This document shows, piece after piece, positions 1 through 58,792 of a stretch of DNA of 64,000 nucleotides; the first letter of the stretch is position 1, and each line of letters opens with the position of its first letter. Under the pieces are notes generated by a model. The model was not told the origin of the DNA. It saw nothing but the letters and a program-made list of their open reading frames with translations, and searched no databases. Made by a program: the position numbers and the translations under genes. This stretch comes from an uncultured Candidatus Cenarchaeum sp. Its GTDB lineage: Archaea > Thermoproteota > Nitrososphaeria > Nitrososphaerales > Nitrosopumilaceae. Where the stretch lies: assembly GCA_958295735.1 (NCBI GenBank), contig OY282369.1, positions 542,161 to 606,160 of the forward strand. Reading direction: 5' to 3'.

Positions 1-2218
1 CCAGTTCCTCTTCGTCCCACGCCCTCTTGCGGTCGTGCACCTCGTCCGCCGGCCCGTCGTACACGTCCCAGAGGGCCCCCGCCACCTGTATCTCCGTCTG
101 CCTGTCGAGGGAGTCGTCGTAGTCGAACAGGGGGATGACGCCGTTGTCGTTCACGATCAGCTCGCTTTCCATGTCGATGAAGGTGTGCCTGAGCTCGCGC
201 AGGAACGGGGAGCCGTCCACCGCGTGCGGGAAAAAGTCCGCAAAGCCCTCGCCGAACGCGCATCCCGGGGACAGTTTCTGGGTGAGGTAGTGCCTGCATC
301 CCTCGGATGCACCCCCGAGGTGGTTGTGCGCGTGGTGGGCGTACTCGTGCAGTATGACGTACCTGCTCTCCGACATGTCGTGCGACGCCCTCGACTCCCG
401 CCCGTCGAGGAATATCCAGGAGAGGCCCGATATGTAGAACGCGTCGCCGTCGAGCCCCCAGGCCTCGGCGACGCTCTCGCCGTACTGCCAGTGCACGTCG
501 ACCGGCGGGATCTCCGCGCCGACCTCCCCCCTGATGAAGGCCCTCGCGTCCGACACTGCGTCCACTATGCGCGCCGCCCCGTTCATCGCGCCCGTCTCCA
601 CGCGCATGTCGAGCCACACGTGTCCGGCTCCGCGATCCTCCAGGTAGTACGGGGCGCCCTCGGAGTACAGAAAGTCCAGGCTGTTCCAGACGCGCACGCC
701 GTCGCCGTACGAGAGCACCCGGATGGTCGGATCCGGCCCCGTCCCGTCCCCGTCCGGATCGGCGCCGTCCAAGGGCCCCAGCGCGTACAGGCCGTGCTCG
801 TTAGTGAACGTGCAGGCGGGCGCCCCGTCCTCGTACGCCATCAGCGTCTCGCCGCCGTCCTCCACGTTCCAGTCGGTGGCGCACACGCGCAGGCCGTGCG
901 CGGGCCCCGCAGCGTCCGAGTACGGGAGATCCGACCAGACCATCCCGTACAGCACGAGATCCCCGGCATCCGCGGCCGCCGCGCCGCTGCGTCCGCCGTG
1001 GCCGCGGGAGCCCGGGCCGCCCGCGGCGGGCTCGGGCTCCGGCGGCGCGGGGCGCCCGTGCCAGGCATGGGCTGCGGCGGCGGCGTGCCCCTCCCCGCTT
1101 CTCGCAAGGATCCCGGGAGCGGCGGGCGCCGGGACGGGCGCGCTGGCGCGGGACGCCTCGACGGCCGCCATCACGGCACCCTCCGGGCCGGGGCCGCCTG
1201 GCGGCCTTTCCCTCGGCAGGGCGCCCGGGCCCGGCGGATCCGGCGCCGCGGGGGACGGCGGCTGCGCCGGGGCGCCGCGGCCGGCGGCGGCTCCGAGCCC
1301 CGTCCCGCCTCCCGCGATCTCGGGGGCGGGCGAGCCCGCGCGGAGGGCCTCGACGGCGGCCATTATCGCGCCCTCCTTGCCCGGGCCGCCCGCGCGGAGG
1401 GCCTCGACGGCGGCCATCATCGCGTCCTCCGGGCCCGGGGCGCCGGGAGGCACCTCCCCCCGCGGGCCCGCCCGTTCCGGCGCCGCGGCGGACTGTATCT
1501 GCCCCGCGGCGTCGCGGCCGGCCGCCGGCGCCACGTCCAGGACCAGCCGTGCGGCCCCGCGCATGAACCCCGCCGCGTCGATCACGGTGACGCCCTCCTC
1601 TGACGGGACGACGGAGAACTCCAACCGGTACTCCAGGCCGGGAGTAGCAGCCAGCGTCCCCCCGATCTCCGTGTACGAGTTCCCGCCGGCCTCCCCGTAC
1701 GACGGCGCGCCGAGGGCCGGATCGGACGACAGCACGGTAACGTCCCCGCCGAACAGCACGTGGACGGAGGTGTCGGCCTCGTCCTCGTATGCGTCGGGGA
1801 ACTCGATCTTGCCGATGGTGCCGTTCCCGTGAAGCACCATGGCCGTCGGGGGAAGCGTCGTGGATAGAACCACGGTAAGCGGCTCGCCCGCGACCGGCGG
1901 GGAGGACGCGGAGATCGTCGTGTTGGACGGGTTGGGGAGATCCGCGTACCGGGACGACGCGCGGGGCGCCGCGCCCTCCGGCGGCGGCCGGGCGGCCGCG
2001 GGGGGCGGGCCCCCCGCGCACGCCGGATCCGCGGGATCCAGCATGCCGCACGCGGCGCCGGCCGCCCCCGCCTCGCCATGTTCTAGCGGGAGGGCTGCCG
2101 CCAGGACTGCCGCCGCGACGGCTACGGCGGCCGTGGCAACGGGCAGCATGGGCGCGGGGCGCCGCGGCGATGCGGGTGGTTCGCGTGATGTCGTGCGCGG
2201 GCGCGCGTGAATCAACAT
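1..2218 (-). CDS. Giant secreted metallopeptidase-type surface protein, member A (3' end outside window)
   Basis: Minus-strand reading frame open from ATG 2218 to the window edge, so only the first ~739 residues are visible. It starts MLIHARPRT, followed by a hydrophobic Ala/Val-rich signal segment (about residues 24-45). A beta-rich domain begins at NPSNTTISAS and a long Pro/Ala/Gly linker follows, containing a duplicated 54-nt segment encoding AAVEALRAG. Next come a DLVLYG transthyretin-like beta domain and a zinc-peptidase signature HEYAHHAHNH, with a downstream GEGFADFF motif that can supply the third ligand Glu (about 230-350 on the plus strand). This order is identical in the neighbouring paralogues. 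Role inferred: secreted, surface-associated gluzincin-like peptidase; substrate unknown. The signal peptide starts later than in the paralogues, so the N terminus is slightly longer. No poly-G tract is present here. The upstream 2219-2260 is AT-rich compared with the surroundings but has no clear TATA box. Confidence 0.85.
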   Translation of the reverse strand, partial: MLIHARPRTTSREPPASPRRPAPMLPVATAAVAVAAAVLAAALPLEHGEAGAAGAACGMLDPADPACAGGPPPAAARPPPEGAAPRASSRYADLPNPSNTTISASSPPVAGEPLTVVLSTTLPPTAMVLHGNGTIGKIEFPDAYEDEADTSVHVLFGGDVTVLSSDPALGAPSYGEAGGNSYTEIGGTLAATPGLEYRLEFSVVPSEEGVTVIDAAGFMRGAARLVLDVAPAAGRDAAGQIQSAAAPERAGPRGEVPPGAPGPEDAMMAAVEALRAGGPGKEGAIMAAVEALRAGSPAPEIAGGGTGLGAAAGRGAPAQPPSPAAPDPPGPGALPRERPPGGPGPEGAVMAAVEASRASAPVPAPAAPGILARSGEGHAAAAAHAWHGRPAPPEPEPAAGGPGSRGHGGRSGAAAADAGDLVLYGMVWSDLPYSDAAGPAHGLRVCATDWNVEDGGETLMAYEDGAPACTFTNEHGLYALGPLDGADPDGDGTGPDPTIRVLSYGDGVRVWNSLDFLYSEGAPYYLEDRGAGHVWLDMRVETGAMNGAARIVDAVSDARAFIRGEVGAEIPPVDVHWQYGESVAEAWGLDGDAFYISGLSWIFLDGRESRASHDMSESRYVILHEYAHHAHNHLGGASEGCRHYLTQKLSPGCAFGEGFADFFPHAVDGSPFLRELRHTFIDMESELIVNDNGVIPLFDYDDSLDRQTEIQVAGALWDVYDGPADEVHDRKRAWDEEEL

Positions 2219-2717: not shown

Positions 2718-3725
2718 CTAGGGTTCCGTCGGCGCGGCGGGCGGATGCCCGGCCGGGCCGGCATCGTCGGGCGCCTTCCAGCCCCCCGCGGGGATCTCGT
2801 GGCCGGCGCCGGCTGGAATCGGGACGGGCGGGCTGGCGCGGGGCGACTCGATGGCCGCCCTGATCTCGTCCTCCAGGCTCGGGGCGGCAAGAGGCCCCTT
2901 TTCTCGCGGGTCCTCGCGCTCCGGCGGATCCGCCGCCGCGGACTGCTGCTGGCCCGCGGCGCCCCGGCCGGCGGCCGGCGCCACGTCGAGGACAAGCCGG
3001 GCGGCCCCGCGCATGAACCCCGCCGCGTCGATCACCGTCACTCCCGCCTCGGACGGGAGCACCGTGAACTCGAACCGGTACTCTTGGCCGGGCGTCACCG
3101 GCAGGGTCCCCCCGATCTCCGTGTACGAGTTCCCGCCGGCCTCCCCGTGGAACGGCGCGCCGAGGGCCGGATCGGACGACAGCACGGTAACGTCCCCGCC
3201 GAACAGCACGTGGACGGAGGTGTCTGCCTCGTCCTCGTATGCGTCGGGGAACTCGATCATGCCTATGCTGCCGTTCCCGCGCATTACCGTCGCGGTGAGG
3301 GGAAGCGTCGTGGCGACGACCACGTCGAACGGCTCGCCCGCGACCGGCCCGGAGGACGCGGAGATCGTCGTGTTGGACGGGTTGGGGAGGGCCGCGTACC
3401 CGGACGAGGCGCGGGGTGTTGCGAACTCCTGCGGCTGCAACTCCTGCCGGCCGGCGGCGCCGTCCGGCTGCCCGCCCGCGGGGGCCGCGGCGGGCGGGCC
3501 CGCGGGGGCCGCGGCGGGCGGGCCCGCGGCGCACGCCGGATCCGCGGGCGCCTGCCCATCGCCGCACGCGGCAGCGGCCGCATCCGGCCCGGCCGCATCG
3601 TGCTGGGGCGGGAGGGCCGCGGCCAGGGCGGCCGCCGCGACGACGACCGCGGCGGCGGCAACGGCGGCGAGCAGCAGGGGCGCGCGGCGCCGCGGCGCCG
3701 ATCTCCCGTGCCCGCGCGAAGCCAT
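2718..3725 (-). CDS. Truncated short member A2 of the surface-protein family
   Basis: 335 residues from ATG 3725 to TAG 2718-2720. The start is supported by a TATA-like box centred 26 nt upstream. Sequence begins MASRGHGRSAPRRRAPLLL, then an Ala/Val signal segment, a mature N terminus with C..G...ADPAC spacing, a GPPAAAPA duplication, then the same NPSNTTISAS beta domain as the long paralogues and a Pro-rich linker. It stops inside that linker. Beyond the stop the frame still resembles the paralogues for a few residues (GGPGSRS) before homology ends, so this looks like a 3'-truncated copy lacking the peptidase, HYR and PBP modules. It could still make a small secreted protein. It has no poly-G tract at the position where members B and D do. 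Confidence 0.75.
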   Translation of the reverse strand: MASRGHGRSAPRRRAPLLLAAVAAAAVVVAAAALAAALPPQHDAAGPDAAAAACGDGQAPADPACAAGPPAAAPAGPPAAAPAGGQPDGAAGRQELQPQEFATPRASSGYAALPNPSNTTISASSGPVAGEPFDVVVATTLPLTATVMRGNGSIGMIEFPDAYEDEADTSVHVLFGGDVTVLSSDPALGAPFHGEAGGNSYTEIGGTLPVTPGQEYRFEFTVLPSEAGVTVIDAAGFMRGAARLVLDVAPAAGRGAAGQQQSAAADPPEREDPREKGPLAAPSLEDEIRAAIESPRASPPVPIPAGAGHEIPAGGWKAPDDAGPAGHPPAAPTEP

Positions 3726-3825: not shown

Positions 3826-6800
3826 CTAGGAGCAGTTGACGACGAACGTGACGGTCTGCGATATGAAGTCGGCATCGAGCGCGTCCAGCCCATCCAGGTT
3901 GATCCGGAAGTCGACGTCCAGGCTGCCGCCCGGCGGCGTCCCGCCGGGTATCTCGGTGCCCGCGGCCAGCGGGGTTGAGTCGGCCCGCCTGGGGGAGGCG
4001 CCGTCCAGGCCCACGGCCATCTCCGTGTACGAGAACGGCAGCTGTCCCTGCACGGGGACGCCGTCCCTGAACTGCGCCCAGTCCGTGGCGGACACGGACA
4101 CCGCGGGCATCGGGGTGGTTCCCACGTTCGTCACGGTCTGCCGCGCCGGCCTGCTCGTGCTCCCCGCGGACAGCTCGGGGAGGGCGAGCGCCGACTTTTC
4201 CAGATCTATCCCGCACGAGTCCAGGCCCCGGAGCAGCTCGGGGGCCCGCGCCCACTCCGCCGCCGTATCGGACACGGACCACACGCCGTACGTCACGGGC
4301 AGCCGCAGGTCGCCAGCGCCGTCCACGCCCGTGCGGCCGAGCGGGCCGCCGTCGAGGGCCGCCGCTCCCGCCACATTCCCCCCCGCGAGGGACGGGTCGC
4401 CCCCCGCCAGCACCAGGGCGACGCCCAGCGCGCGGACGGCCTCGTACGCGGCGTAGGCCGGCGTGGATGCCGTAGCGGCGGCGGCGCCGACCGCGCCGTC
4501 TATGGCGTCGGTCGCGCCGCTCCGCTCCACGGCGAACTGCACCGCGGACAGCCGGGTGTCCCTGGCAAGCTGCACGGCCGCCGCATCCGAGAGCACCAGG
4601 GGGGATGCGGCCACCCCGCTGCCCGCCCCGGCTCCCGCGCCGCCGGCCGCGAACCACGCCGACCTCTCCCGCACCGGGCTGGCCGCGCCCGTGCTCCCGG
4701 CGATGGCCGCGAGCCCCGAGTCCGAGCCCACGTACACGACGGCCACGCTCCTGGCGGTACCGCTCCCGGCGGCCGCCCGCACGGCGGCCTCTACGGACCC
4801 GGCGGCCCCGGACGCGTCCGCGAACTCGACGGGCGGGCCGACGCGCACGCCGAGCGGCTCCAGGTCGGATGCCAGCGGCCCCAGCAGGCCGTACCCCGGG
4901 GAGGGGCCGCCGGCGGCGGCGGAGCCGTACAGGTCTGCCTGCACCACCGGCACGACCGCGCCGAACCCGCCCCGCGCGATCTCGGAGGCGATGACCCTGG
5001 CCATATGCGCCGCGCCCGGCTCCAGCCTGTATATGCCGTCCCCCTCGACGGCCAGCGAGCGCGCCGCCGACGAGTGCGAGACGAGCGTTATGCCGTTGGC
5101 GGCCGCGTACCCCGCCATGCCGTGCAGCGCGCCGTCCGAAGCCGGGCCCACGTACAGCGCGGGCCCCCGCCCGTTATCGTGGGCGCCCCGCAGCGCCGCC
5201 TCGGCCGCCGCCCCGGACGCGCCGGCCGGCAGGCCGTATTCGGAGACGGCCACCAGGAACGGGTACCCCCGCTCCGCCGACAGGGCGTTGAACGCGGAGG
5301 CCCCAAGCCTCGCCGCCTCGGCCGACGGGTCGCCGGGGCCGCCCGCGAACACGCCCACGCGCACGTGCGGCTTGGTGGCCACCGCGATTTCGCCGGGCCC
5401 GGGCAGCAGGCCCGGCTCGGCGGCCGGATCCGGAAGTTCCAGGTCGGCCGCCTCCCCGTGCGGCGAGGACACGGAGCCGCCGTTGAGGACGAGCGCCCCC
5501 GTCCCGGAATAGTCAAGGTCGGCGGCTACGTCGCCGGGCCTGACCGTGTACACGAACGCGAGCGAGTGCGTGCCGGAGCCGCCGGCGTACGCGGCGGCGG
5601 CCCCCGGCGAGCCGGCATCCAGCAGCAGTTCCGGGGAGCCCTCCACCATGACCGGCTCCGAAAAGTCGACCCGCATTCCTATGGCCTGGCCCTCGCCGTA
5701 CACGCCCGCCGTGGCGTTGGAAGATACTTGCACCACGCGCGGGACGGTGGCCACGGTGATTTTGCCTGGCCCGGGCAGCAGGCCCGGCTCGGCGGCCGGA
5801 TCCGGAAGTTCCAGGTCGGCCGCCTCCCCGTGCGGCGAGGACACGGAGCCGCCGTTGAGGACGAGCGCCCCCGTCCCGGAATAGTCAAGGTCGGCCGCCG
5901 CGTCGCCTGGCCGCACTACATACACGAACGCGGGGGAAGAAGTGCCGGAGCCGCCGGCGTACGCGGCGGCGGCCCCCGGCGAGCCGGCATCCAGCAGCAG
6001 TTCCGGGGAGCCCTCCACCAGGACCGGCTCCGAAAAGTCGACCCGCATTCCTATGGTCCGGCCCTCGCCGTACGCGCCCGCGGGGGCGTCCGAGGATACG
6101 GCCACCACGCGCGGGACGGTGGCCACGGTGATTTTGCCTGGCCCGGGCAGCAGGCCCGGCTCGGCGGCCGGATCCGGAAGTTCCAGGTCGGCGGCCGCCC
6201 CGTGCGGGGAGTATAAGGAGCCGCCGTTGAGGACGAGCGCCGCCGTCCCGGAATAGTCAAGGTCGGCCGCCGCGTCGCCTGGCCGCACTACATACACGAA
6301 CGCTAGCGAGTACGTGCCGGAGCCGTTCGCGTAGGTAGCGGCGGCCCCCGGCGAGCCGGCATCCAGCAGCAGTTCCGGGGAGCCGCTTACCACGACCGGC
6401 TCCGAAAAGTCGACCCGTATCCCTATAGTCCGGCCCTCGGCGTACGCGCCGGCGCCGGCGTCGGAGAATACGTCCACCACGCGCGGGATGCCCAGCGGCC
6501 CCGGAAGGCCCGGCGGCCTCGGGTCGGGAAGCTCCAGGCCGGCCCCCCGGTTGTCGGCCGCGCTCCGTATAGCGCACGGCCCGCCCAGCGCGCCCGCGCC
6601 GGCATAGTCGGGGGCCGCCTCGCCCGGCTGCACCGTATACGAGAACGTGAGGAGGTCCGTCCCGTTCCCGGACGCGTATATCGCGCTCCCGCCGCCGTCC
6701 ATTTCTAGGGACGGCACGAGGGAGCCCGGCGCCTCCCCGGGCATGGCGGCGGTCAGCGCCACGGGGTGCGAGAAATTCACGTGCACCATCAGGGTGGATC

Positions 6801-9800
6801 CCGGCTCGCGCGGCGCGCCCGGGTCGGCCCACGCCCGCACGGCCGACACCGGGACGCGCGGGGCGTCCGACCGCACCACCGTCACGTTCTGCTCGGCGGC
6901 TTCGAGGTTTCCCGAACGGTCGGCGGCCAGCCACGATACCGTGGTGGTGTTCCCCACGGGGAAGTGCAGGGGGCCGGCGTACAGCATGATGACGTCCGAG
7001 GCCGCGTCTTCGGCGGCGGCCGCACAATAGTCGCCGGCGGACAGGGAGACCTCCGCGCCGCCGGCGTATGCCGTATAGTCCGCGGGCGGCGCCACCGAGG
7101 GCGGCGTCGTGTCGAGGACGGCCACCAGCTGCGTGTCGCTGTCCGATTTGCCGGTCGCCGCGTCGGTGGCGGTCCACGTCACCGCGGTGGTCCCGAGCGG
7201 GAACGACTGCCCCGGCGGCTCGCGGGTTACGGCCAGCCCCGCTGCCGGGTACGTCGCCGGAACGCCGAGGTCCGCTATGGCGGCGCCGCCCGGCGACGCC
7301 GCCTCTGCCACCAGGTCGCCGGGAGCCTCGATCGCGGGGCCGGCGGGCGTGCCGGTGATGGTCACGTCGTCGATGGTCACGAGCAGGTCAAAAAAGTCGA
7401 CCGGCGCGCCCTTCGCCGCGAACTCGATTCTGAGATCCTCCGCTTCCATCAGTCCTGCCGGCAGCGGTACCGCTTCTGCCCGGAATCCCAACGTCGACTC
7501 GTTCGCGCCCCATTCCCTCACCAGATGCCGATCGTACGAGTCGTCCCACGCGTAGGCCCTCAGGTACGAGCCCGCCTCCAGGGGCGGCGAATGGCGGAGC
7601 AGCCCCAGCTCGGCCGACTCGTACGCGGTCATGTCGATGCCGCGATCCATGTACACGCTACGCTCTTCCGCCGCCCAAAACATGTAGAGGTCGGGATTGT
7701 CGAAATTGTCAAACGATGTGATCTTCCACGTGTCGTAAAAGCCGGAGCCGATCTCGCGAGACCAGTCGGCGAAGCCCCTGTCGAAGGTGGAGTTCAGCTG
7801 GACGGGGGCCCACTTCGGGGGATCCGTCACCGTGACGTCGACGCGGGCCAGCTCGATCTTCCCCGAGGAGTTGGCGCGCACCACCACGAAGTTTTCCCCC
7901 ACGTCGGCCTCGGCGGGGCGCAGGATCAGCGTCCCCGTGCCGTTCCCGTTGTCGTCCATGTCGGCGCCCCCGTACTCGTAGTCGCGCCAGTGCTCGAACC
8001 CCTGCCGCACGCTGAGCGATATTTCGGAGCCGTTGGGGCGGGTGGCCGACACCGGCACCGCCGCCTCCCCCGCATGGCTGACGGTTACGGCGGGAATGGC
8101 GTCAAACGCGGGAAGATCCGAGGAGTTGAACGGCATCTGGTGCAGGTCCATTATGTTGGCCATGCTCCCGAGCCCATCCTGCTTTTCCCACCGCGCGTAG
8201 AACTGCTCGGCGCTCTGCGGGCCGTCCTGCACGATGCGGATGATCTCGCCGGCCTCCACGTGTAGGTCGTCCAGATTCTCGTCATACACCATTACGTTAT
8301 CATCGACCAGATCCCACCTGAGGTCGTACAACTCGTCCGCCGGCTCGTCGTGCACGTCCCAGAGGGCCCCAGCCACCTGTATCTCCGTCTGCTTGTCGGT
8401 GGAGTTGTCGTAATCATACAAGACGTCAACGCGGTTCCCGACATGACGAAGCTCGCGCTCCAGATCGATGTATACGTCTTCGTACATGCGCAGGTACGGG
8501 GAGCCGTCCACCGCGTGCGGGAAAAAGTCCGCAAAGCCCTCGGTGAACGCGCATCCCGGCGACAGTTTCTGGGTGAGGCGGTGCTCGCAGCCCACGGGAT
8601 CTCCCCCCAGGTGGTTGTGCGCGTGGTGGGCGTACTCGTGCAGGATGACCCACCTGTTCTCCGACAAGTCAGACGTCGTATTGGAGTCCAGCCCGCTGAG
8701 GAATATCGTTGAGTTGCTCGCAACGTAGAATCCATCGCCGTCGCCCGCAGGTTCCGGCCAGGCATCCGCGACGCGCTCGCCGTGCTGCCAGAACGCCGTG
8801 ACCGGCGGGATCTCTACGCCGATCTCCCCCTTGATGAAGGCCCTCGCGTCGGATATCGCGTCCACTATCCGGGCAGCCCCGTTCATCGCGGCCGCGTCCA
8901 CGTACATGTCGAGCCGGGCGTTTCCGGCCTCGCGATCCGGCAGGTAGTGCGGGCTTCGCTCGTGGTACAGCGACCCCTCCTTGTCCCTGACAGACGCCCC
9001 GTCGCCTGACGAAAACACATCGATGCTCAGATCCGGCCCCGACCCGTCCAAGCCGGGATCTGTCCTGTCGAGGGGCCCCAGCACGTACAGGCCGCGCTCG
9101 TTCGTGTACGTGCAGGCGTGTGCCCCGCCTTCGTACATCACCCACGTGTCAATGCCGTAGTCTACGTCCACGTCGGTGGCGCACACGAGCAGGCCGTGCG
9201 CGGGCCCCCTCGAGTCGGAGTACGGGAACTCCGACCAGACATGCCCGAACAGCACCAGATCCCCGGCGTCGGCGTCGGGGGAGACGTCCACCACGCGCGG
9301 GATGCCCGGGGGCCCCGGAAGGCCCGGCGGCCCGGGGTCCGGCAGCTCCAAGTCGGCCCCCCTGTTGTCGGCCGCGCTGCGTATAGTGCACGGCCCGCCC
9401 AGCGCGCCCGTGCCGGCATAGTCGGGGGCCGTCTCGCCCGGCTGCACCGTATACGAGAAGGTGAGGCGGTCCGTCCCGTTTCCGTACGCGTATATAGCGC
9501 TCCCGCCGCCCTCCATTTCGAGGTGCGGCTCGAGGGAGCCGGGCGCCCCCCAAGGCAAGAGCCACGGGGTTATCACGGCGATGGGCGAGGCCAGATCCCA
9601 AGTGTTGTCAAGGGCGGCGGTCAGCACAACGGGATGCGAGAACTCCACGTGTATCATCAGGGTGGAGCCCGGCTCCCGCGGCGCGCTTGGGTCGGCCCAC
9701 GCCCGCACGGCCGACACCGGGACGTGGGGGGCGTCCGACCGCACCACTGTCACGTCGTGCTCGGCGGCTGCGGGGTTGCCCGAGCGGTCCATGGCCAGCC

Positions 9801-12800
9801 ACGATACCGTGGTGGTGTTCCCCACGGGAAAGTACGCGGGGGCGTCGTTCAGCACGATGACGTCCGAGACCGCGTCCTCGGCGGAGGCCGCACAGTAGTC
9901 GTCGGCGGACAGGTAGACCCCCGCGCCGGCGGCGTATGCCGTATAGTCCGCGGGCGGCGCCACCGAGGGCGGCGTCGTGTCGAGGACGGTCACCCGCTGC
10001 GTGTCGGTGTCGGATTCCCCGGTCGCCGCGTCGGTGGCGGTCCACGTCACTTCGGTAACCCCGAGATCGAAGAACGGCCACTGCGGCTCGCGGGTTACGG
10101 CCAGCCCCTCCGCGGGGTACGTCGCCGGAGCGCCGAGGTCAAACAAGATGGCGCCGTCCGGCCACGCCGCCTCGGCCTGCACGTCGTCGGGGGCCTCGAT
10201 CGCGGGGCCGGCGGGCGTGCCGGTGATGGTCACGTCGTCTATGGCGGCGGTGAAGTCGTGCAATAATGGGTCGGCCGGCAGGCCCTTCGCTTCGAACTGG
10301 ATGACTAGGCTTTCCGCGCCCATCAGGTCGTCCGGCAACGCGATCGTTTCCGCCCGGAATCTGTTCGTCACGCTGTTCCCGTCCCACTCCTCGATCAGTA
10401 GCCAATCAAGCGCGTCGTCCCACGCGTAGGCCCTCAGGTACGAGCCCGCCTCCAGGGGCGGCGAGTAGCGGAGCAGTCCCAGCTCGGCCGACTCGTACGC
10501 TGTCATGTCGATGCCGCGCTTCAGGTACACGCTGCCTTTTGCCTCGTCACTGAACCCGACGTGGGGGGAGGACGATCTGCTGCTAAAAGCGGGCTCCCAC
10601 CAAGCGCCCGATCTGGTCCAGTCAGTGAATTTCCTGTCGAATGTGGCGTTCAGCTGGACGGGGGCCCACTTCGGGGGGTCCGTCACCGTGACGTCGACGC
10701 GGGCCAGCTCGATCTTCCCCGAGGAGTTGGCGCGCACCACCACGAATCTTTCACCCACGTCGGCCTCGGCGGGGCGCAGGATCAGCGTCCCCGTGCCGTC
10801 CCCGTTGTCGTCCATGGTTGCCCCCCCGTACTTGTAGTCGCGCCGGATGTCGAACCCCTGGCGCACGCTGAGGGATGTCTCGGCGCCCCCGGGGGAGGCG
10901 GCCGACACCGGCACCGCGGCTTCCCCGGTATGGCTGACGGTCACGTGGGGGATCGGAGCGAACACCGGGAGGTCCCCTGAATTGAACGGCATCCGGTGCA
11001 GGTCCATTATGTTGGCCATGCTCCCGATCCATTCCGGGCTTTCCCACCAGAGCGGCACCGGGCCGGGATCCGTCGGTGTCGGGTCAGGATCCGTCGGTGT
11101 CGGGTCAGGAACTGTCGGTGTCGGACCGGGATCCGGCGGCACCAAGCCTGGATCCGGCGTCACCAAGCCTGGATCCGGCGGCACCGGGCCGGGATCCAGC
11201 GGCACCAAGTTGCCCACGCTCCAGATCTCCGCCTGCCTTTCCCACCGCGCGTAGAACTGCTCTGCGCTCTGCGGGCCGTCCCGCACGATCTGGATGATCT
11301 CGTTGGCCCCCATGTGGAGATCGTCCAGGATGCCCCCTTCCGTGACTGTTCGCTCGCCGTCCCACCACCTCTTGCGGTCGTGCACCTCGTCCGCCGGCCC
11401 GTCGTACACGTCCCAGAGGGCCCCCGCCACCTGTATCTCCGTCTGCTTGTCGGTGGAGTTGTCGTAACCGTACAGGACGTCAACGCGGTTCCCGAAATAA
11501 CGAAGCTCGCGCTCCAGATCGATGTATACGTCTTCGTACACGCGCAGGTACGGGGAGCCGCCCACCGCGTGCGGGAAAAAGTCCGCAAAGCCCTCGCCGA
11601 ACGCGCATCCCGGCGACAGTTTCTGGGTAAGGCGGTGCTTGCAAGCCACACCATCTCCCCCTAAGTGGTGGTGCGCGTGGTGGGCGTACTCGTGCTGTAT
11701 GACCCACCTGCTCTCCGACACGTCGCCCGTTGTCGGGACGGCATCCAGCCCGTTGAGGAATATCGTGGAGACAGACGCCCTGTAGAACGCGTTGCTGGTG
11801 CTGCCGCCCGGGCGCGGCGGCCAGGCATCTATGATGCGTTCGCCGTACTGCCAGGACACCAGGACCGGCGGGATCTCTGCACCGATCTCTTCCTTGAATA
11901 AGGCCCTCGCGTCCGATATCGCGTCCACTATCCGGGCGGCCCCGTTCATCTCTGGAGTTTTCACAACCATGTCGAGCCGCTCGTTTCCGGGCGCGAGATC
12001 CGGCTCGTAGTACCGGCCGGCCTCGCGGTACAGCCGCCCCTCCTTGTCCCTGACAGACACCCCGTCGCCGTACGAGTACGCGCGGATTCCCGGATCCGGC
12101 CCCGTCCCGTCCAAGTCGGGATCTGTCCCGTCGAGGGGCCCCAGCACGTACATGCCGTACCCGTTCGTGGACGTGCAGGCATCCGTCCCGTCCGCGTTGT
12201 ATATCAGCTCAGCGAGGCGGCCTTCCGCATTCACGTCAAAGGCGCACACGGACAGGCCGCGCGCGGGCCCCAGCAAGTCCGAATACGGAAGCTCCAGCCA
12301 GATCGTCCCGTACAGCACGAGATCTCCTGCGTCTGCATCCGCCGCGCCGCTGCGGCTGCCGGGGCCACTCGCGGCGGACTCGGACTTCGGCGGCGCGGCG
12401 CGCGGAGGCCCGGCCGGGGCGGAGCCGGAAGGCGCCGGGGCGGGCGCCGTCCAGCCTCCCGAAGGGATGCCGGAGCCGGAAGGCGCCGGGGCGGGCGCGC
12501 TGGCGCGTGGCGCCTCGACGTCCGCCCTGATCTCGTCATACAAGCTCGGGCCGGCCGGAGGCCCCATTTCTCGCGGGTCTTCGCGTTCCAAGGGATCCGG
12601 CGCCGCCGCCGACTGCGGCTGCCCCGGGGCGCCCCGGCCGGCCGCCGGCGCCACGTCCAGGACCAGCCGGGCAGCCCCGCGCATGAACCCCGCCGCGTCT
12701 ATCACCGTCGCGCCCGCCTCGGACGGGAGCACCGTGAACTTGAACCGGTACTCGCGGCCGGGCGTCGCCGCCAGCGTCCCCCCGATCTCCGTGTACGCGC

Positions 12801-13384
12801 TCCCGCCCGCCTCCCCATATGACGGCGCGCCGAGGGCCGGATCGGATGACAGCACGGTAACGTCCCCGCCGAACAGCACGCGCACCGATGTGTCCGCCTC
12901 GTCCGTATGCCCGTCGGGGAACTCGATCGCGCCGATGGTGCCGTTCCCGCGCATTACAGTCACCGTCGGGGGAAGCGTCGTGGCGACGACCACGACGAGC
13001 GGCTCGCCCGCGACCGGCCGGGAATGCGCGGAGATCGTCGTGTTGGACGGGTTGGGGAGATCCGCGTATCCTGACGTGGCGTAGGGCGCGGCGGGCTCCG
13101 GCAGCTGCCGCTCTTGCCTGCCTAGAGCGCCGTCAGGCGCCCCCCCCCCCCGACGGAGCGGCGGCGGGCGGGCCGGCCGCGCACGCCGGATCCGCCGGCG
13201 CCTGCCCCTCGCCGCACGCGGCATCGGCCGCCTCCGGCACGGCCGCATCGTGCTGGGGCGGGGGCGCGGCCAGGGCGGCCGCCGCGACCATGACCGCGGC
13301 GGCAACGGCCGCGGCGGCGGCGGCTCCGAGCAGCAGGGGCGCGGGGCGCCGCGGCGCCAATCTGGGGCGTTCGCGCAAAGCCAT
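3826..13384 (-). CDS. Giant surface protein member B: two peptidase modules plus PBP1-like domain; out of frame at a G12 tract
   Basis: Start ATG 13384 (MALRERPRLAPRRPAPLLL; TATA box 27 nt upstream). The signal-peptide frame runs only 83 codons, because a G12 tract (13140-13151) shifts it to an early stop. After the tract the other frame is open for about 3100 codons, to TAG 3826-3828. Restored product about 3185 residues. Domain order: signal peptide; NPSNTTISA beta domain; Pro-rich linker; DLVLYG beta domain; peptidase module 1 (HEYAHHAHHH, GEGFADFF); PDPG/PTPT linker (about 11050-11210); Ig-like; lectin/MAM-like beta domain; two HYR-like repeats (VTWTATDAATG, VSWLAMDRSGN); second DLVLFG beta domain; peptidase module 2 (HEYAHHAHNH, about 8610-8640); a second Ig/HYR block; three GSPELLLDAGSPGA repeats; PBP1-like domain (about 4260-5380); conserved C-terminal domain ending VVNCS. 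Function inferred: secreted or wall-associated protein degradation and ligand binding. A homopolymer sequencing error is the main alternative to a genuine OFF state. Confidence 0.85.
13140..13151. repeat. C12 tract (G12 in member B), candidate phase-variation switch
   Basis: Twelve consecutive C on the plus strand, directly after codons for PPAAAPS. With 12 G the signal-peptide frame ends SGGGGA-stop. With 11 or 14 G it would continue into GAPDGALGRQE, which matches the paralogue reading GGQPDGAAGRQE in member A2. The current assembled length is therefore OFF. Confidence 0.85.
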
Positions 13385-13407
13385 GCGGGAGGGCCCGCAG
13401 CGTCTAG

Positions 13408-13414
13408 TAATAAA
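13408..13414 (-). promoter_or_regulatory. TATA-like box of member B
   Basis: Minus-strand TTTATTA centred 27 nt upstream of ATG 13384. The first intergenic repeat copy begins only 3 nt beyond it. Confidence 0.65.
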
Positions 13415-20219: not shown

Positions 20220-23200
20220 CTAGGAGCAGTTGGCGACGAACGTGACGGTCTGCGATATGATGTCGGCCTCGAGCGCGTCCAGGCCCCCCAGGTTGATCCG
20301 GAAGTCGACGTCCACGCTGCCGCCCGGCGGCGTCCCCCCGGGTATCACGGTGCCCGCGGCCAGCGGGGCGGAGTCGGCCCGCCGCGGGGAGGCGCCGTCC
20401 AGGCCCACGGCCATCTCCGTGTACGAGAACGGCAGCTGTCCAGGTATGGGGACGCCGTCCCTGAACTGCGCCCAGTCCGTGGCGGACACGGACACCGCGG
20501 GCATCGGGCCGGTTCCTATGTTCGTCACGGTCTGCCGCGCCGGCCTGCTCGTGCTCCCCGCGGACAGCTCGGGGAGGGCGAGCGCCGACTTTTCCAGATC
20601 TATCCCGCACGCGTCCAGGCCCCGGAGCAGCTCGGGGGCCCGCGCCCACTCCGCCGCCGTATCGGACACGGACCACGCGCCGTACGTCACGGGAAACCGC
20701 AGGTCGCCGGAGCCGTCCATGCCCGTGCGGCCGAGCGGGCCGCCGGTCAGGGCCGCCGCGCCCGCTATGTTCCCCCCCGCGAGGGACGGGTCGCCCCCGG
20801 CCCCCACCAGGGCGCCGCCCAGCGCGCGGACGGCCTCGTACGCGGCGTAGGCCGGCGTGGCCGATGTGGCGGGGCCGCGCGGGGCCGCGATGCGGTCTAT
20901 GTAGTCCGTCATGGAATTGCGCTCCACGGCGAACTGGACGGCGGACAGCCGCACGTCGCGGGCCAGCTGTATGGCCGCCGCATCGGCCAGTATGGCGGGC
21001 GACGCGGCCACCCCGTTCCCCGCGCCGGCCCCCGCGCCGCCGGCGGCGAACCACGCCGACCTCTCACGTATGGGGCCGTCCGCCGGCACGCTGCCGGCCA
21101 TCGCCGCGAGTTCCGCATCCGAGCCCATGTACACGACGGCGACGCTCCTGGCCGTCCCGCTCCCGGCGGCCGCCGCCACGGCGGTTTCTATGGGCGCGGC
21201 CGCCGCGCCGCCGCCGCCCCCGGCGAACGCGACGGGCTCGCCGACGGGTATCCCGAGCGCCTCCAGGTCCGATTCCAGCGATTCCAGCAGGCCGTACCCG
21301 GGGCCGTGCAGGCCGGCCTGCACCACGGGGACTACGGCGCCGTACCCGCCCCGCGCCACCTCCGTCGCGAGGGCCCTGGCCAGGTGCGCCGCGCCGGGCT
21401 CCATCCGGAATATCCCGTCGCCTTCCACGGCCAGCGAGCGCGACGCCGACGAGTGCGATATTATCGTGATGCCGTTCTCCGAGGCGTACCCGGCCATGCC
21501 GGCCAGCGCTATATCGGAGGCCGGGCCCACGTACAGGGAGGGGCCGCTCCCGCCCCCGTGCGCCCCGCGGAGCGCCGCCGCGCCGGAGGCGCCCGCCGGG
21601 AGATCGTGCGCGGACACGCTGACGTAGAACTGGTAGCCGCGCTCCTTCGAGACGGCGTTGAAGGCGGCAGCCCCCAGCCTCGCCGCCTCGGCCGACGGGT
21701 CGCCGGCGCCGCGCGCGAACACGCCCACCCGCACGGGCTGCTTGCCGGCCTGCCCGGTCCCGTCGGGCCCGCCGGTGGACTTTTCGCCGGGATTCTCTAC
21801 GGGGTTCCCGAAGGCGTCCGTGACGTTCGCGGACAGGTCGAATCCCACGGCGGAGCTGGCCGAGGCGGTCGTGCTCGCGTTCGCGTTCCACGACACTACC
21901 ACGTTGTTCCCGTACGCGGCCGCCCCGGAGGCGCCGCCGCTGTTCCCCGCTGCCGCGGCGCCGCCCACCGTGATGTTCGTATAGTGGGAGGGGACGGCAA
22001 GCACCGGCTCCGAATAGACGGCGGCCATAGAGCTGCCGTTCAGCACGAAGGCCAGCAGGAAGGACGGGCGGTCGGGATCGCGCGCGACGTCCAGCAGCGC
22101 CCGCTCCGGCGCGTGCGCCGCGCGGCCGTTGGTGACGAAGCCGGCGGGCAGCAGCAGCGTGGTGGACTCCTGATCCGAGAACGCGGCCGCGTCCAGCGCT
22201 TCCCGCACCCGGTCGGACACGAGAAGCACGAAGGTCCTGTCCCCCGTGCTGCCGGACTCGACGGACAGTATATCGGCGGCAGACAGAGAGACCGCGGCGT
22301 CGCCTCCCCAGCTCCGGCCGCGGATCTCGATCATTCCTGGGAACGACTGCGCGCCGGGCGCGGTCGCGGCCTCGTCAAACGTCATGACGAGCCGGCCCGC
22401 GTTGCCGCCGGCCGGCGCCAGGTTGAAGGATGCCGCGGCGAGGCGCGGGGGCGATGGATCCTGCACGTACGCGAGCGGGACGGCCGGCTGGCCGCCCGGC
22501 GCGTACCCGTTGCCGGATGCGTCGGACACGAAGGCGGCGGGCAGCTCGATGGTGGCGGAGCCCAGGTCCGCCGCGTTGAGCTCCACGCGCTTGGCGCCGG
22601 AGATGTCCAGCGCGAACGCCGCGTCCCCCGCGCGGCCCGATGCCACGGAGGGAATGTCGCCGCTGGACAGCGCAACCTCCCCGCCGCCTCCCCGTATTAC
22701 TATCTCCCCCGCGAACGACCGCACGTCCGGCGCGGCGGCGGCCGCCTCGCCGAACGTAATAGTGAGCCGGCCGTTCTCTCCGGCCGTCAGGTCGAGGGCG
22801 GCGGATTCGAGCAGGGGGGCCTGGCCGCCCGACGGCCCCGGGTCGGGCAGCTCCAGGTCGGCCCCCCTGTTGTCGGCCGCGCTCCGTATAGTGCACGGCC
22901 CGCCCAGCGCGTCCGTTCCGGCATAGTCGGGGGCCGTCTCGCCCGGCTGCACCGTGTACGAGAAAGTGAGGCGGTCCGTCCCGTTCCCGGACGCGTACGT
23001 GGCGCTCCCGCCGCCCTCCATTTCAAGGGACGGTTTGAGGGAGCCCGGCGCCTCCCCGGACATGGCGGCAGTCAGGGCCACGGGGTGCGTGAACTCTACG
23101 TGCATCGTCATCGCGGAGCCCGGCTCGCGCGGCGAGCCCGGATCGGCCCACGCCCGTACGGCTGACACGGGGACGTGCGGGTCGTCCGACCGCACCACCG

Positions 23201-26200
23201 TCACGTCCTGCGTGGCGGTTGCGGGGTTGCCTGAACGGTCCAGGGCCAGCCACTTTACCGTGGTGGTGCTTCCGACGGGAAAGTACAGCGGGGCATTGTC
23301 CGGTATGATGACGTCCGAGACCGCGTCCGCGGCGGTGGCCTCGCAGTAGTCGTCTATGTACAAGGCGACGTCTGCGCCGCTGGCGCGCACCGTATAGTCA
23401 GCGGGCGGCGTCACCGAGGGCGGCGTCGTGTCAATGACCGTCACCCGCTGAGTGTCGCTGTCGGATTCTCCGGTCGTCGTGTCGGTCGCGGTCCACGTCA
23501 CTTCGGTGGTCCCGAGCGGGAACGACTGCAACTGCGGCTCGCGGGTTATGGCCAGTCCCGTTTGGGGATCCGTCGTGGGCGCGCCGAGGTCTGCTATGGT
23601 GGTGCCGCCGGGCGAGGCCGCTTCCGCCCTCACGTCGCCCGGTGCCTCGATCGCCGGGTTTCCGCCGCGCGTGCCTGTGATGACCACGTCGTCGACGACC
23701 ACGCCGAACTGGTCCAGGGGGTCGGCCGGCAAGCCCCTCGCCACAAACACTATGGTAAAGTCCTCCACCATCAGGTCTGCCGGCAACACGACAGTCTCTG
23801 CCTCGAATCCGCCCGTTGCCGCATCCGCGCCCCACTCTTCGATCTGCTCCCACCCGCCCGTGCTGTTAAACGCGTATACCCGCAGGTAGGAGCCCGCCTC
23901 CAGAAGCGGAGCATCGCGGAAAAATTCCAGGGTGGCCGACGAGTGCGCCGTCATGTCTATGGGAGTTGATAATACGCATCCCAGGTTTTCTGACCTAAAC
24001 GCGAGGTGATAGTCGGGCGTGTCGCCAGACCATACGATCCTCCACTCGTCGCTGGCGCTGCAACCCGTTCCTTGGATCCAGTCGACAAGGCCCTTGTCGA
24101 ATGTGTCGTTCAGCTGGACGGGAGCCCACTTCGGGGGATCCGTCACCGTGACGTCGACGCGGGCCAGCTCGACGTTTCCGGAAGAGTTGGCGCGCACCAC
24201 TACGAATTTTTCCCCCACGTCGGCCCTGGCGGGGTTCAGGATCAGGGTCCCCGTGCCGTCCTCGTTGTCGTCCATGGCGGCCCCAACGTAATGCAAGTCG
24301 TACTCGTTTTCGAACCCCTGACGCACATCGAGCGATACGTCGGCGCCCCCCGGAATGGTAGCAGACACCGGCACCGCGGCCTCTCCGGTATGGCTGACGG
24401 TTACGGGAGGGATCGGAGCAAACGCCGGAAGGTCCCCCGTGGAGTTGAACGGCATCCGGTGCAGGTCCATTATGTTTTCCATGCTGCCGAGCCCCGGCCG
24501 CCTTTCCCAGCGCACGTAGAACTGCTCGGCGTTCTGAGGGCCGTCCCGCACGATCTGGATGATCTCGTCGGCCCCCATGTGGAGATCGTCCAAGATTCCA
24601 CTTTCCGGAACAGCTTGCCCGCCGGCCCACAACCTCTTGCGGTCGTGCGTTTCGTCCACATGCTCGTCGTACACGTCCCAGAGAGCCCCCACCACCTGTA
24701 TCTCCGTCTGCTTGTCGGTGGAGTCGTTGTAGTCGAACAGGGTGTAATAGTCGTCGCCTACGCGGTACAGTTCGCGCTCCATGTCGACGTAGGTGTCCTC
24801 GTATTCCCGCAGTTCCGGCGCGTCGTCCACCATATGCGGGACAAAGTACGCGAGGCCCTCGCCGAACGCGCATCCCGGGGATATTTTTTGATCGAAACGG
24901 TGCGTGCAGCCCTCGGGCGGCCCTCCCAGGTGGGCGTGCGCGTGGTGGCCGTACTCGTGCTGGATGACGTACCTGCTCTCCGACATGTCGTGTGTTGCAG
25001 ATGTGTCCAATCCGCCTAGGAATATCTCGGAGTCAAGTGCAACGTAGAACGCATCGCCGCTGTCTGCATGTTCTGGCCAGGCATTTGCGACCCGGCTACC
25101 GTAGTGCCAGAATACCGTGACCGGCGGGATCTCGGCCCCTAGATCTTCTTTGAAGTGGGCCTTCGTGTCCGATATTACGCCCACTATGCGGGCGGCCCCG
25201 TTCATCGCATCCGACTCCACGTCCATGTCGAGCCGCGCGTTTCCGGCCTCGCGATCCCGCAGGTAATGCGGGCTGGGCTCGTAGTACGGCAGTCGCGCGC
25301 TGTCCCTGACCGACACCCCGTCGCCGAACGAAGATACATCGATGCTCAGATCCGGCCCCGTCCCGTCCCCGTCCGGATCCGTGTTGTCGAGTGGCCCCAG
25401 CACGTACCAGCCGTGCTCGTTCGCGAATGTGCAGGCAACCGTCCCATCCGTGTAGTTCAACAGCGTCTCGCTGGCATCCACAAGGTTGTAGTCGGTAGCG
25501 CACACGAACAGGCCGTGCGCGGGCCCCCTCAAGTCGGAGTACGGGAGCTCCATCCGGATCTCCCCGTACAGCACGAGATCCCCGGCGCCCGCATCCGCCG
25601 CGCCGCTGCGGGAGCCGTGGCCGCCCGTGGCGGGTTCGGGCCCCGGCAGCGCGGCGCGCTGATGCCCTGACGGGCCGGGGCCGCCTCGCCCCGCCAGGCT
25701 GCCCGCTGGAATCCCGGAGTCGGCGCCGGCGGGTGCCGGGACGGGCGCGTCCTCGCGGGGCGCCTCGAGGGCCGCCCTGATCGCGTCGTCCAAGCTCGGG
25801 CCGCCTGGCGGCCCCGCGCCCCGCGGGCCCGCCCGCTCCGGCGTATCCGGCGCCGCGGCGGACTGCGGATTCCCCTGCGCGTTCCGGCCGGCGGCCGGCG
25901 CCACGTCCAGTACAAGCCGGGCCGCCCCGCGCAGGAACCCCGCCGCGTCGATCACCGTCGCGCCCGCCTCGGTGGGAAGCACCGTGAACTCGAACCGGTA
26001 CTCACGGCCGGGCGTCGCCGCCAGCGTCCCCCCGATCTCCGTGTACGTGTTCCCGCCGGCCTCCCCGTGCGACGGCGCGCCGAGTGCGGGATCCGATGAC
26101 AGTACCTTGACGTCCCCGCCGAACAGCACGTGGACGGAGGTGTCCGCCTCGTCCGTATGCCCGTCGGGGAACTCGATCTCTCCGATGCTTCCGTTCCCGT

Positions 26201-26609
26201 GCATTACCGCCGCGGTGAGGGGAAGCGTGGTAGTGAGAACCACGGAAAGCGGCTCGCCCGCGACCGGCTTGGAATGCACGGAGATCGTCGTGTTGGACGG
26301 GTTGGGGCGATCCGCGTACCCGGACGAGGCGTAGGGCGCCGCGCGCTCCGGCGGCCGCGGCTCTTGCAGGCCGGGGGAGGCCCCCTGCTGCCCTTCTGCG
26401 GGCGCTGCGGCAGGCGGGCCCGCGGCGCACGCCGGATCCGCGGGCGCCTGCCCCGCGCCGCACGCCGCGTCGGACGCTGTCGGCCCTGCCGCATCGTTTT
26501 GGAGAGGCATGGCCGCGGCCAGGGCGGCCGCCACGACGACCGCGGCGGCAACGAGCAACCAAGTCGCGGGGCGCCGCGGCGCCGATCCGGCGCGCTCGTG
26601 CAAAGCCAC
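20220..26609 (-). CDS. Giant surface protein member E (2129 residues)
   Basis: Start GTG 26609 (VALHERAGSAPRRPATWLL), 26 nt from a TATA-like box; stop TAG 20220-20222. Modules: Ala/Val-rich signal peptide; NPSNTTISVH beta domain; Pro-rich linker; DLVLYGEIRM transthyretin-like domain; zinc-peptidase module with HEYGHHAHAH and GEGLAYFV (about 24850-24960); Ig-like; MAM-like; two HYR-like domains; then a pair of ESAALDLTAGENGRLTITF-type beta domains shared with members D and the NHL protein at 46.3-58.8 kb but not with B or C; PBP1-like domain; C-terminal domain ending FVANCS. The N-terminal third is closest to member C and the middle to member D, so the gene is a mosaic. Secreted; peptidase and ligand-binding roles are inferred from modules. 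Confidence 0.85.
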   Translation of the reverse strand: MALHERAGSAPRRPATWLLVAAAVVVAAALAAAMPLQNDAAGPTASDAACGAGQAPADPACAAGPPAAAPAEGQQGASPGLQEPRPPERAAPYASSGYADRPNPSNTTISVHSKPVAGEPLSVVLTTTLPLTAAVMHGNGSIGEIEFPDGHTDEADTSVHVLFGGDVKVLSSDPALGAPSHGEAGGNTYTEIGGTLAATPGREYRFEFTVLPTEAGATVIDAAGFLRGAARLVLDVAPAAGRNAQGNPQSAAAPDTPERAGPRGAGPPGGPSLDDAIRAALEAPREDAPVPAPAGADSGIPAGSLAGRGGPGPSGHQRAALPGPEPATGGHGSRSGAADAGAGDLVLYGEIRMELPYSDLRGPAHGLFVCATDYNLVDASETLLNYTDGTVACTFANEHGWYVLGPLDNTDPDGDGTGPDLSIDVSSFGDGVSVRDSARLPYYEPSPHYLRDREAGNARLDMDVESDAMNGAARIVGVISDTKAHFKEDLGAEIPPVTVFWHYGSRVANAWPEHADSGDAFYVALDSEIFLGGLDTSATHDMSESRYVIQHEYGHHAHAHLGGPPEGCTHRFDQKISPGCAFGEGLAYFVPHMVDDAPELREYEDTYVDMERELYRVGDDYYTLFDYNDSTDKQTEIQVVGALWDVYDEHVDETHDRKRLWAGGQAVPESGILDDLHMGADEIIQIVRDGPQNAEQFYVRWERRPGLGSMENIMDLHRMPFNSTGDLPAFAPIPPVTVSHTGEAAVPVSATIPGGADVSLDVRQGFENEYDLHYVGAAMDDNEDGTGTLILNPARADVGEKFVVVRANSSGNVELARVDVTVTDPPKWAPVQLNDTFDKGLVDWIQGTGCSASDEWRIVWSGDTPDYHLAFRSENLGCVLSTPIDMTAHSSATLEFFRDAPLLEAGSYLRVYAFNSTGGWEQIEEWGADAATGGFEAETVVLPADLMVEDFTIVFVARGLPADPLDQFGVVVDDVVITGTRGGNPAIEAPGDVRAEAASPGGTTIADLGAPTTDPQTGLAITREPQLQSFPLGTTEVTWTATDTTTGESDSDTQRVTVIDTTPPSVTPPADYTVRASGADVALYIDDYCEATAADAVSDVIIPDNAPLYFPVGSTTTVKWLALDRSGNPATATQDVTVVRSDDPHVPVSAVRAWADPGSPREPGSAMTMHVEFTHPVALTAAMSGEAPGSLKPSLEMEGGGSATYASGNGTDRLTFSYTVQPGETAPDYAGTDALGGPCTIRSAADNRGADLELPDPGPSGGQAPLLESAALDLTAGENGRLTITFGEAAAAAPDVRSFAGEIVIRGGGGEVALSSGDIPSVASGRAGDAAFALDISGAKRVELNAADLGSATIELPAAFVSDASGNGYAPGGQPAVPLAYVQDPSPPRLAAASFNLAPAGGNAGRLVMTFDEAATAPGAQSFPGMIEIRGRSWGGDAAVSLSAADILSVESGSTGDRTFVLLVSDRVREALDAAAFSDQESTTLLLPAGFVTNGRAAHAPERALLDVARDPDRPSFLLAFVLNGSSMAAVYSEPVLAVPSHYTNITVGGAAAAGNSGGASGAAAYGNNVVVSWNANASTTASASSAVGFDLSANVTDAFGNPVENPGEKSTGGPDGTGQAGKQPVRVGVFARGAGDPSAEAARLGAAAFNAVSKERGYQFYVSVSAHDLPAGASGAAALRGAHGGGSGPSLYVGPASDIALAGMAGYASENGITIISHSSASRSLAVEGDGIFRMEPGAAHLARALATEVARGGYGAVVPVVQAGLHGPGYGLLESLESDLEALGIPVGEPVAFAGGGGGAAAAPIETAVAAAAGSGTARSVAVVYMGSDAELAAMAGSVPADGPIRERSAWFAAGGAGAGAGNGVAASPAILADAAAIQLARDVRLSAVQFAVERNSMTDYIDRIAAPRGPATSATPAYAAYEAVRALGGALVGAGGDPSLAGGNIAGAAALTGGPLGRTGMDGSGDLRFPVTYGAWSVSDTAAEWARAPELLRGLDACGIDLEKSALALPELSAGSTSRPARQTVTNIGTGPMPAVSVSATDWAQFRDGVPIPGQLPFSYTEMAVGLDGASPRRADSAPLAAGTVIPGGTPPGGSVDVDFRINLGGLDALEADIISQTVTFVANCS

Positions 26610-32900: not shown

Positions 32901-33506
32901 GCCAGCGTCCCCCCGATCTCCGTGTACGCGTTTCCGCCTGCCTCGCCGCGGAACGGCGCGCCAAGGGCCGGATCCGAGGTCAGCACCGCGACGTCCCCGC
33001 CGAACAGCACGTACACCGAGGTGTCGGCCTCGTCCGTATACCCGTCGGGGAACTCGATCACCCCAATGCTTCCGTTCCCGCGCATTACCGCCGCCGTCAG
33101 GGGAAGCGTCGTAGTAACGACCACGCCGAGCGGCTCGCCCGCGACCGGCCGGGAGGACGCTGAGATCGTCGTGTTGGACGGGTTGGGGCGATCCGCGGAC
33201 CTGGACGATGCGTACGGCGCTACGGGCTCCGGCAGCAGCTGCTCCTGACGGCCTGTAGTGCCGTCAGGATGTCCGCCCCCCCCCCCCCGAAGGAGCCGCG
33301 GCAGGCGGGCCCGCCGCGCATGCCGGATCCGCAGGCGCCTGCCCCGCGCCGCACGCGGCGGCAACCTCCGGCGCGGCCGCATCGTGCTGGGGCAGGGCCG
33401 CGGCCAGGGCGGCCGCCGCGACGACGGCCGCGGCGGCAACGGCAACGGCGGGCAACCAGAGCGCGGGGCGCCGCACTACCGTTCCGGCGCGCCCGTGCAA
33501 AGCCAT
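26939..33506 (-). CDS. Giant surface protein member D; out of frame at a G13 tract
   Basis: Start ATG 33506 (MALHGRAGTVVRRPALWLP; TATA box 27 nt upstream). The signal-peptide frame ends after 80 codons because of the G13 tract at 33276-33288. The frame beyond the tract is open to TAG 26939-26941, giving about 2188 residues if one G is lost. Modules: signal peptide; NPSNTTISAS beta domain; linker; DLVLYGQIRM domain; peptidase module HEYGHHVQTH with GEGLAYFI (about 31740-31842); Ig-like; MAM-like; two HYR-like; a Pro-Thr-Asp-Pro-Gly repeat linker (29556-29655); two ESAALDL beta domains; PBP1-like domain (about 27330-28470); C-terminal domain ending VVNCS. Very close to member E across the 3' half. 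The frameshift lies at the same protein position as that of member B. Confidence 0.85.
29556..29655 (-). repeat. 15-bp tandem repeat encoding PTDPG in member D
   Basis: Six to seven perfect 15-nt units (plus-strand GGTCGGTCGGCCCCG) encode repeated Pro-Thr-Asp-Pro-Gly. Member E has a single PDPGPSGG at the same place, so this is a recent in-frame expansion of a linker. Confidence 0.9.
33276..33288. repeat. C13 tract (G13 in member D), candidate phase-variation switch
   Basis: Thirteen consecutive C on the plus strand. From ATG 33506, 13 G leads to SGGGGRTS-stop. Twelve or fifteen G would join the signal peptide to HPDGTTGRQEQ and the rest of the protein. The assembled length is therefore OFF. 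Confidence 0.85.
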
Positions 33507-33529
33507 GCCGGAGGGCCCGCAGCGCCGCG

Positions 33530-33536
33530 TAATAAA
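33530..33536 (-). promoter_or_regulatory. TATA-like box of member D
   Basis: Minus-strand TTTATTA centred 27 nt upstream of ATG 33506. Just beyond it (about 33541-33567) is one degenerate copy of the array repeat. Confidence 0.6.
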
Positions 33537-58784: not shown

Positions 58785-58792
58785 TAGTTAAA
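58785..58792 (-). promoter_or_regulatory. TATA-like box of the NHL gene
   Basis: Minus-strand TTTAACTA, centred about 26 nt from ATG 58763. It supports translation starting upstream of the G12 tract. Confidence 0.6.

Follow-up and report, generated by a model that had tools for sequence, protein, structure and literature searches.

Translational phase variation by poly-G/C tracts occurs in Neisseria. Phase-variable genes of Neisseria (compare PMC5953494) carry a poly-G/C tract at the 5' end, are switched ON or OFF by a single base and occupy many loci. Campylobacter jejuni NCTC11168 carries 29 tracts, 23 of them in coding regions (PMC8437040). C. jejuni tracts, of approximately 7-14 G or C, are located in the 5' portion of the coding sequence of surface-related genes; a single base turns ON to OFF, and each genome has many such loci (PMC8437040). 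The genes described here resemble both systems in these respects. They differ from both in that the organism is an archaeon with leaderless-type promoters, the proteins are giant and secreted rather than glycan enzymes or porins, and the tracts of the 72% GC genome (178 of 11 or more G) lie mostly outside genes; we infer switching here from sequence.

A survey of 99 genomes, 18 of them archaeal, found in the passages relevant here that homopolymers concentrate near gene 5' ends, and proposed that genes, including archaeal ones, could be inactivated in this way (PMC2831843). The effect described in those passages is one of short A and T tracts (3-7, to approximately 9 bases). The same passages make no mention of surface genes with 11-18-G tracts in an ammonia-oxidising archaeon. 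A 2025 review treated the archaeal spread of phase variation as a future matter (PMC11868660). Searches of the open-licence full-text literature for phase variation together with Cenarchaeum or Nitrosopumilus returned nothing relevant. A preliminary description of this DNA had judged the phenomenon not to be, as far as known to its author, a standard theme in ammonia-oxidising archaea. Slippage phase variation is documented in bacteria and apparently undescribed for archaea.

The DNA analysed was a 64,000-nt stretch (the window) of a Candidatus Cenarchaeum genome. The genome is that of an ammonia oxidiser (AmoA match, E = 1.7e-118). Cenarchaeum is named in a sponge study (PMC12181767), which shows no link to this genome. 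C12 was present on the plus strand exactly at 13140-13151, corresponding to G12 on the coding (minus) strand of gene B. The features of gene B were as follows.

13407..13414, minus strand: TATA-like box of gene B (TTTATTAC), read from the sequence, 30 nt before the ATG; putative promoter
13265..13384, minus strand: start codon of gene B (ATG, 13382-13384) and signal peptide (MALRERPRLAPRRPAPLLLGAAAAAAVAAAVMVAAAALAA), homologous to the in-frame signal peptides of paralogues A1, C and D
13140..13151, minus strand: G12 tract of gene B, proposed frameshift switch, in frame at 11 or 14 G
13133..13135, minus strand: TGA closing the signal-peptide frame of gene B at G12
3826..13139, minus strand: body of gene B in the other frame, approximately 3100 codons, with HYR domain and M36-like peptidase region

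From the ATG at 13384, the signal-peptide frame passes through the signal peptide, a proline/alanine-rich linker and the tract (SGGGGA) to the TGA at 13135-13133, ending ...APSGGGGA* after 83 aa. The body frame has no stop between 13305 and 3826, and the codon model scores its stretch from 13122 onward, 3098 codons, as coding. The preliminary description had stated that the G12 tract splits the gene, with a stop three codons on in the signal-peptide frame and approximately 3100 open codons in the other, and that 11 or 14 G would join the two. All of this was borne out. The tract had also been placed directly after the signal peptide, which required correction: it lies 233 nt past the ATG, approximately 37 residues beyond the hydrophobic core.

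Only three runs longer than 8 were found in the window, in gene B (G12), its paralogue E (G13) and giant gene F (G12). Run lengths reached 8 and then went straight to 12, 12 and 13. Four G12-mers were observed against 0.11 expected, a count reached by 0 of 100 dinucleotide shuffles, and G8-mers were without excess (18 observed, 20 expected). The runs are therefore far longer than chance provides, and a lone chance run was ruled out as the source of the B tract. Restriction of the tract to one gene was likewise ruled out, since E and F also carry runs. Each of the three lies at most approximately 235 nt from the start of a giant gene, on the coding strand. The features of E and F were as follows.

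33529-33536, minus strand: TATA-like box of gene E, with the same spacing to the start as in B
26939..33506, minus strand: gene E, with ATG at 33506, signal peptide, tract, and body (26939-33275) in another frame
33276..33288, minus strand: G13 tract of gene E, at the place homologous to the B tract; out of frame, in frame at 12
58785-58792, minus strand: TATA-like box of gene F (TTTAACTA); the F family shows B-type spacing
46353..58763, minus strand: gene F, giant secreted-type gene of 4136 aa with NHL and Ig-like repeats
58574..58585, minus strand: G12 tract of gene F, between start and signal peptide; in frame

The B family comprises eight copies in this genome and was found in none of 60 relatives, which included one same-genus genome; a scan of the GTDB 220 contigs with the family alignment likewise gave no relative. 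Copies free of the tract served as controls, and four of these lie in the window.

1..2218, minus strand: paralogue A2, which lacks a tract, has its signal peptide in frame and extends past the window edge
2718..3725, minus strand: paralogue A1, which lacks a tract, has its signal peptide in frame and is truncated at 335 aa
13637..19981, minus strand: paralogue C, which starts with GTG, lacks a tract and has its signal peptide in frame
20220..26609, minus strand: paralogue D, which starts with GTG, lacks a tract and has its signal peptide in frame

The real frame of B and E is known because the tract-free copies show it. The signal peptide was in frame with the conserved domain in all six tract-free copies (A1, A2, C, D, L015 and L016), and both tract-bearing copies, B at G12 and E at G13, were out of frame (Fisher p = 0.036, with paralogues that are not independent samples). 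B and E are the clean cases, in which the signal peptide precedes the tract and one G more or less would shift the reading frame of a gene that is intact apart from this. In the N-terminal 750 codons, dN/dS was 0.49-0.55 for B against C, D and E and 0.57 for C against D; the shifted-frame control gave approximately 1.05-1.1. The body of B, at dN/dS of approximately 0.5, resembles the intact paralogues, and B and E are therefore not old pseudogenes. A pseudogene would lack constraint or carry further disruptions, and the B body retains 3098 open codons under constraint. Paralogue A1 retains promoter, signal peptide and N-terminal domain and ends after 335 codons, just upstream of A2.

Tract contexts were sampled genome-wide as random stretches around tracts (60 of 107 clusters), and approximately ten further F-type genes were found in this sample. 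Alignment of the F-type upstream regions gave a conserved element, TTTATCTACCGGCGGGACGGCGGGCGCGC, followed by the start codon. The first 14 bases of this element were used to search for F-type genes blind to tracts, which returned 20 genes, 18 of the F type and two unrelated. In nearly every F-type copy, the distance from the first base of the element to the start codon was 30 nt. The tract was present in 13 of the 18 or, once F and L059 were added, in 15 of 20, at G10-G15; L059 and F carry a variant of the element.

F-type frame calls rest on the inferred start codon. On this basis, five of the 15 tract-bearing genes were in frame from the start (F, L059, L097, L103 and L106) and ten were out of frame (L094, L095, L096, L098, L099, L101, L102, L107, L108 and L109); tract-free F-type genes were in frame in 3/5 cases. 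With both families pooled, 9/11 tract-free and 5/17 tract-bearing genes were in frame (p = 0.018; paralogues not independent). The latter proportion is close to the one-third expected from freely drifting length. Several F-type copies have an ATG or GTG downstream of the tract, and L098, L102 and L109 have a body-frame stop between tract and signal peptide, beyond removal by slippage; in such copies the tract may therefore be untranslated. F-family leaders contained one stop in the start frame against 10 and 2 in the other frames, an openness that weakly favours a translated leader frame. In L094, L101, L102 and L107, the TGA that closes the out-of-frame leader shares bases with an ATG or GTG further on (ATGCCGCTGA; ATG or GTG, CCG, CTG, A). 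Speculatively, this overlap would suit coupled re-initiation.

This genome has 178 tracts of 11 or more G; its same-genus relative has 15, and each of 79 further relatives has 0-9. Counts of 982 G 9-mers and 464 11-mers leave at most 162 runs of 9-10, and the long tracts are therefore a separate class. On the genome contig (G000:C1), G-tracts lie mostly on the minus strand over approximately 0-1.3 Mb and on the plus strand over approximately 1.2-2.9 Mb, a split that looks like replication-strand bias. The strand of the leader tracts, with G on the coding strand, was left out as evidence because it is confounded with this bias.

Leaders of surface genes held 16 tracts in approximately 4.4 kb, against approximately 0.4 expected from the non-coding background (a rough figure; paralogues not independent). 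Tracts are in this sense concentrated in surface-structure genes, though such leaders account for only approximately 14% of the sampled tracts. The others are intergenic or at insertion-sequence ends, so general instability of poly-G also plays a part. The candidate reading that all tracts serve surface genes was rejected on this share, another share being accounted for by the insertion sequence. Ends of this insertion-sequence-like element, 17 in number, carried G9 to G13 with the same flanking bases for each end type, and part of the genome's G-tracts are therefore insertion-sequence ends. Length also differed among other near-identical flanks (G9/G9/G11/G12 in a 37-39-nt repeat, G17/G15, G14/G13 and G15/G12). 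Such between-copy differences are what slippage would give, and consensus error could give some of them.

The dispersed element measures 2.1 kb, with inverted ends (GTACACACTTACCTCCCCCCCC...TCCCG) and a frame of roughly 590 codons that looks like an IS66-type transposase. It was present at L018 3001-5105, L019 7228-9332, L023 3001-5105 and 7501-9606, L033 3000-5104, L043 3742-5845 and L061 613-2715. A second repeated context, mostly intergenic, comprised G12-G14 followed by TGCTGACCTCATAC in L024, L029, L035, L037 and L071. Tandem repeats of 37-76 nt, each with a G-run of varying length, were located upstream of genes or between them (L048 3002-3153, L050 5972-6062 and L028 5827-5951).

MutS and NucS were not found in the genome, and the same searches gave matches in control genomes. 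Most of the family likewise lacks NucS; its absence would therefore permit instability and cannot explain the excess of tracts in this genome.

Similar tracts were found in other ammonia-oxidising archaea. The same-genus genome (G001; 2,045,086 bp) has G11 immediately upstream of the signal peptide in two giant secreted genes, whose frames are open for 1944 and >1022 codons, G12 3 nt before the ATG of another giant secreted gene and G11 between two in-frame ATGs of a fourth gene. The same genome also has, in L083/L084, G12 at the junction of two adjacent open frames resembling sugar-metabolism genes and another G12 in frame within a methyltransferase-like gene. A genome of another genus (G013; 40% GC) carries C11, C14, C14, C13 and C11 at the starts of five paralogous secreted-protein genes, of which one is in frame from an ATG, another two are in frame from a GTG or TTG, and the remaining two are out of frame. 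Both phases are thus present among copies of the F type (5 in, 10 out) and among the G013 paralogues, each a set of paralogues from one genome. G010 has G11-G16 tracts near signal-peptide genes. That one genus has G and another C speaks for more than one origin of the tracts.

Taken together, the G12 tract of gene B is probably a hypermutable switch that controls a giant secreted protein by frameshift. The run would gain or lose a G during replication slippage, and slipped lengths would escape correction, as neither MutS- nor NucS-type mismatch repair was found. At 11 or 14 G, gene B would yield signal peptide and whole protein for export, and at 12 or 13 G a stub of approximately 80 residues. 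If approximately 17 such genes were set independently, a population would hold many surface-protein combinations, which might be useful against viruses or in an animal host. The preliminary description had proposed contingency-locus phase variation. The layout was confirmed and recurs in many giant surface genes; the switching part is a reading of the sequence, with which the paralogue frames, the constraint on the body and the between-copy length variation are consistent. The B locus would work like a contingency locus, and its membership of that class is provisional. A broader proposal, which we consider evenly balanced, is that ammonia-oxidising archaea own phasomes, that is, sets of giant surface proteins switched singly by poly-G/poly-C slippage. 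These would have arisen more than once and would give host-associated archaea a bacteria-like combinatorial surface variation.

Several other readings were weighed against a frameshift switch. An assembly error had been allowed for from the outset, and as a lone slip it cannot explain the tracts, since they recur across genes here, in the same-genus relative and, as poly-C, elsewhere. A miscounted G at B is still a rival: the tracts would be real and the true length at B (and E) fixed and in frame. Runs of 12-13 G are error-prone and hard for any sequencer, one base puts B or E in frame, and random miscounting would also give the in-frame share of 5/17. Miscounting leaves unexplained both the genome-wide excess of tracts and the long tracts at the starts of giant secreted genes in this and other genera, and a tract of such length would be unstable even if miscounted; we regard it as unlikely. 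Equally improbable is instability free of selection, by which G-runs would grow, without mismatch repair, in unconstrained stretches including leaders and linkers, and the out-of-frame genes would be broken or breaking. The absence of MutS and NucS, the intergenic position of most tracts, the G9 to G13 range at insertion-sequence ends and the existence of degenerate copies (L095, L096 and A1) all suit such drift. It would not be expected to place 16 tracts in the leaders, to leave the bodies of B, E and most F-type genes long, open and constrained, or to give poly-C at paralogues in a 40% GC genome.

Programmed recoding, in which polymerase or ribosome would slip at the G-run and yield a fixed fraction of product from an out-of-frame gene, has a precedent in that slippage can occur at homopolymers; for magnesium chelatase genes of bacterial and archaeal genera, poly-A runs have been measured to cause frameshifting (PMC3711429). 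Length and phase would both be preserved at a recoding site, so the variation of both counts against it: lengths range from 10 to 15 among paralogues with both frame states, and the tract is absent from 6/8 B-family copies. The conserved slip-site length and phase of a programmed ribosomal frameshift were thus not found, and recoding is very improbable as the explanation, although some leaky expression from out-of-frame genes is possible.

A frameshift switch at these genes, if true, would mean a genome-wide on/off set of surface genes in an ammonia oxidiser, and would point to strong and changing pressure on the cell surface from viruses, host or neighbours. Annotation of frameshifted giant genes in archaeal assemblies would change. 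The same reading predicts mixtures of tract lengths in existing read archives and is therefore testable without culture.

The 3' ends of B, D, E and F (minus strand; window 3826-5000, 20220-21400, 26939-28100 and 46353-47500) were near-identical, at 93-98% identity over the last approximately 600 bases, with the remainder diverging. These ends look as if swapped by gene conversion.
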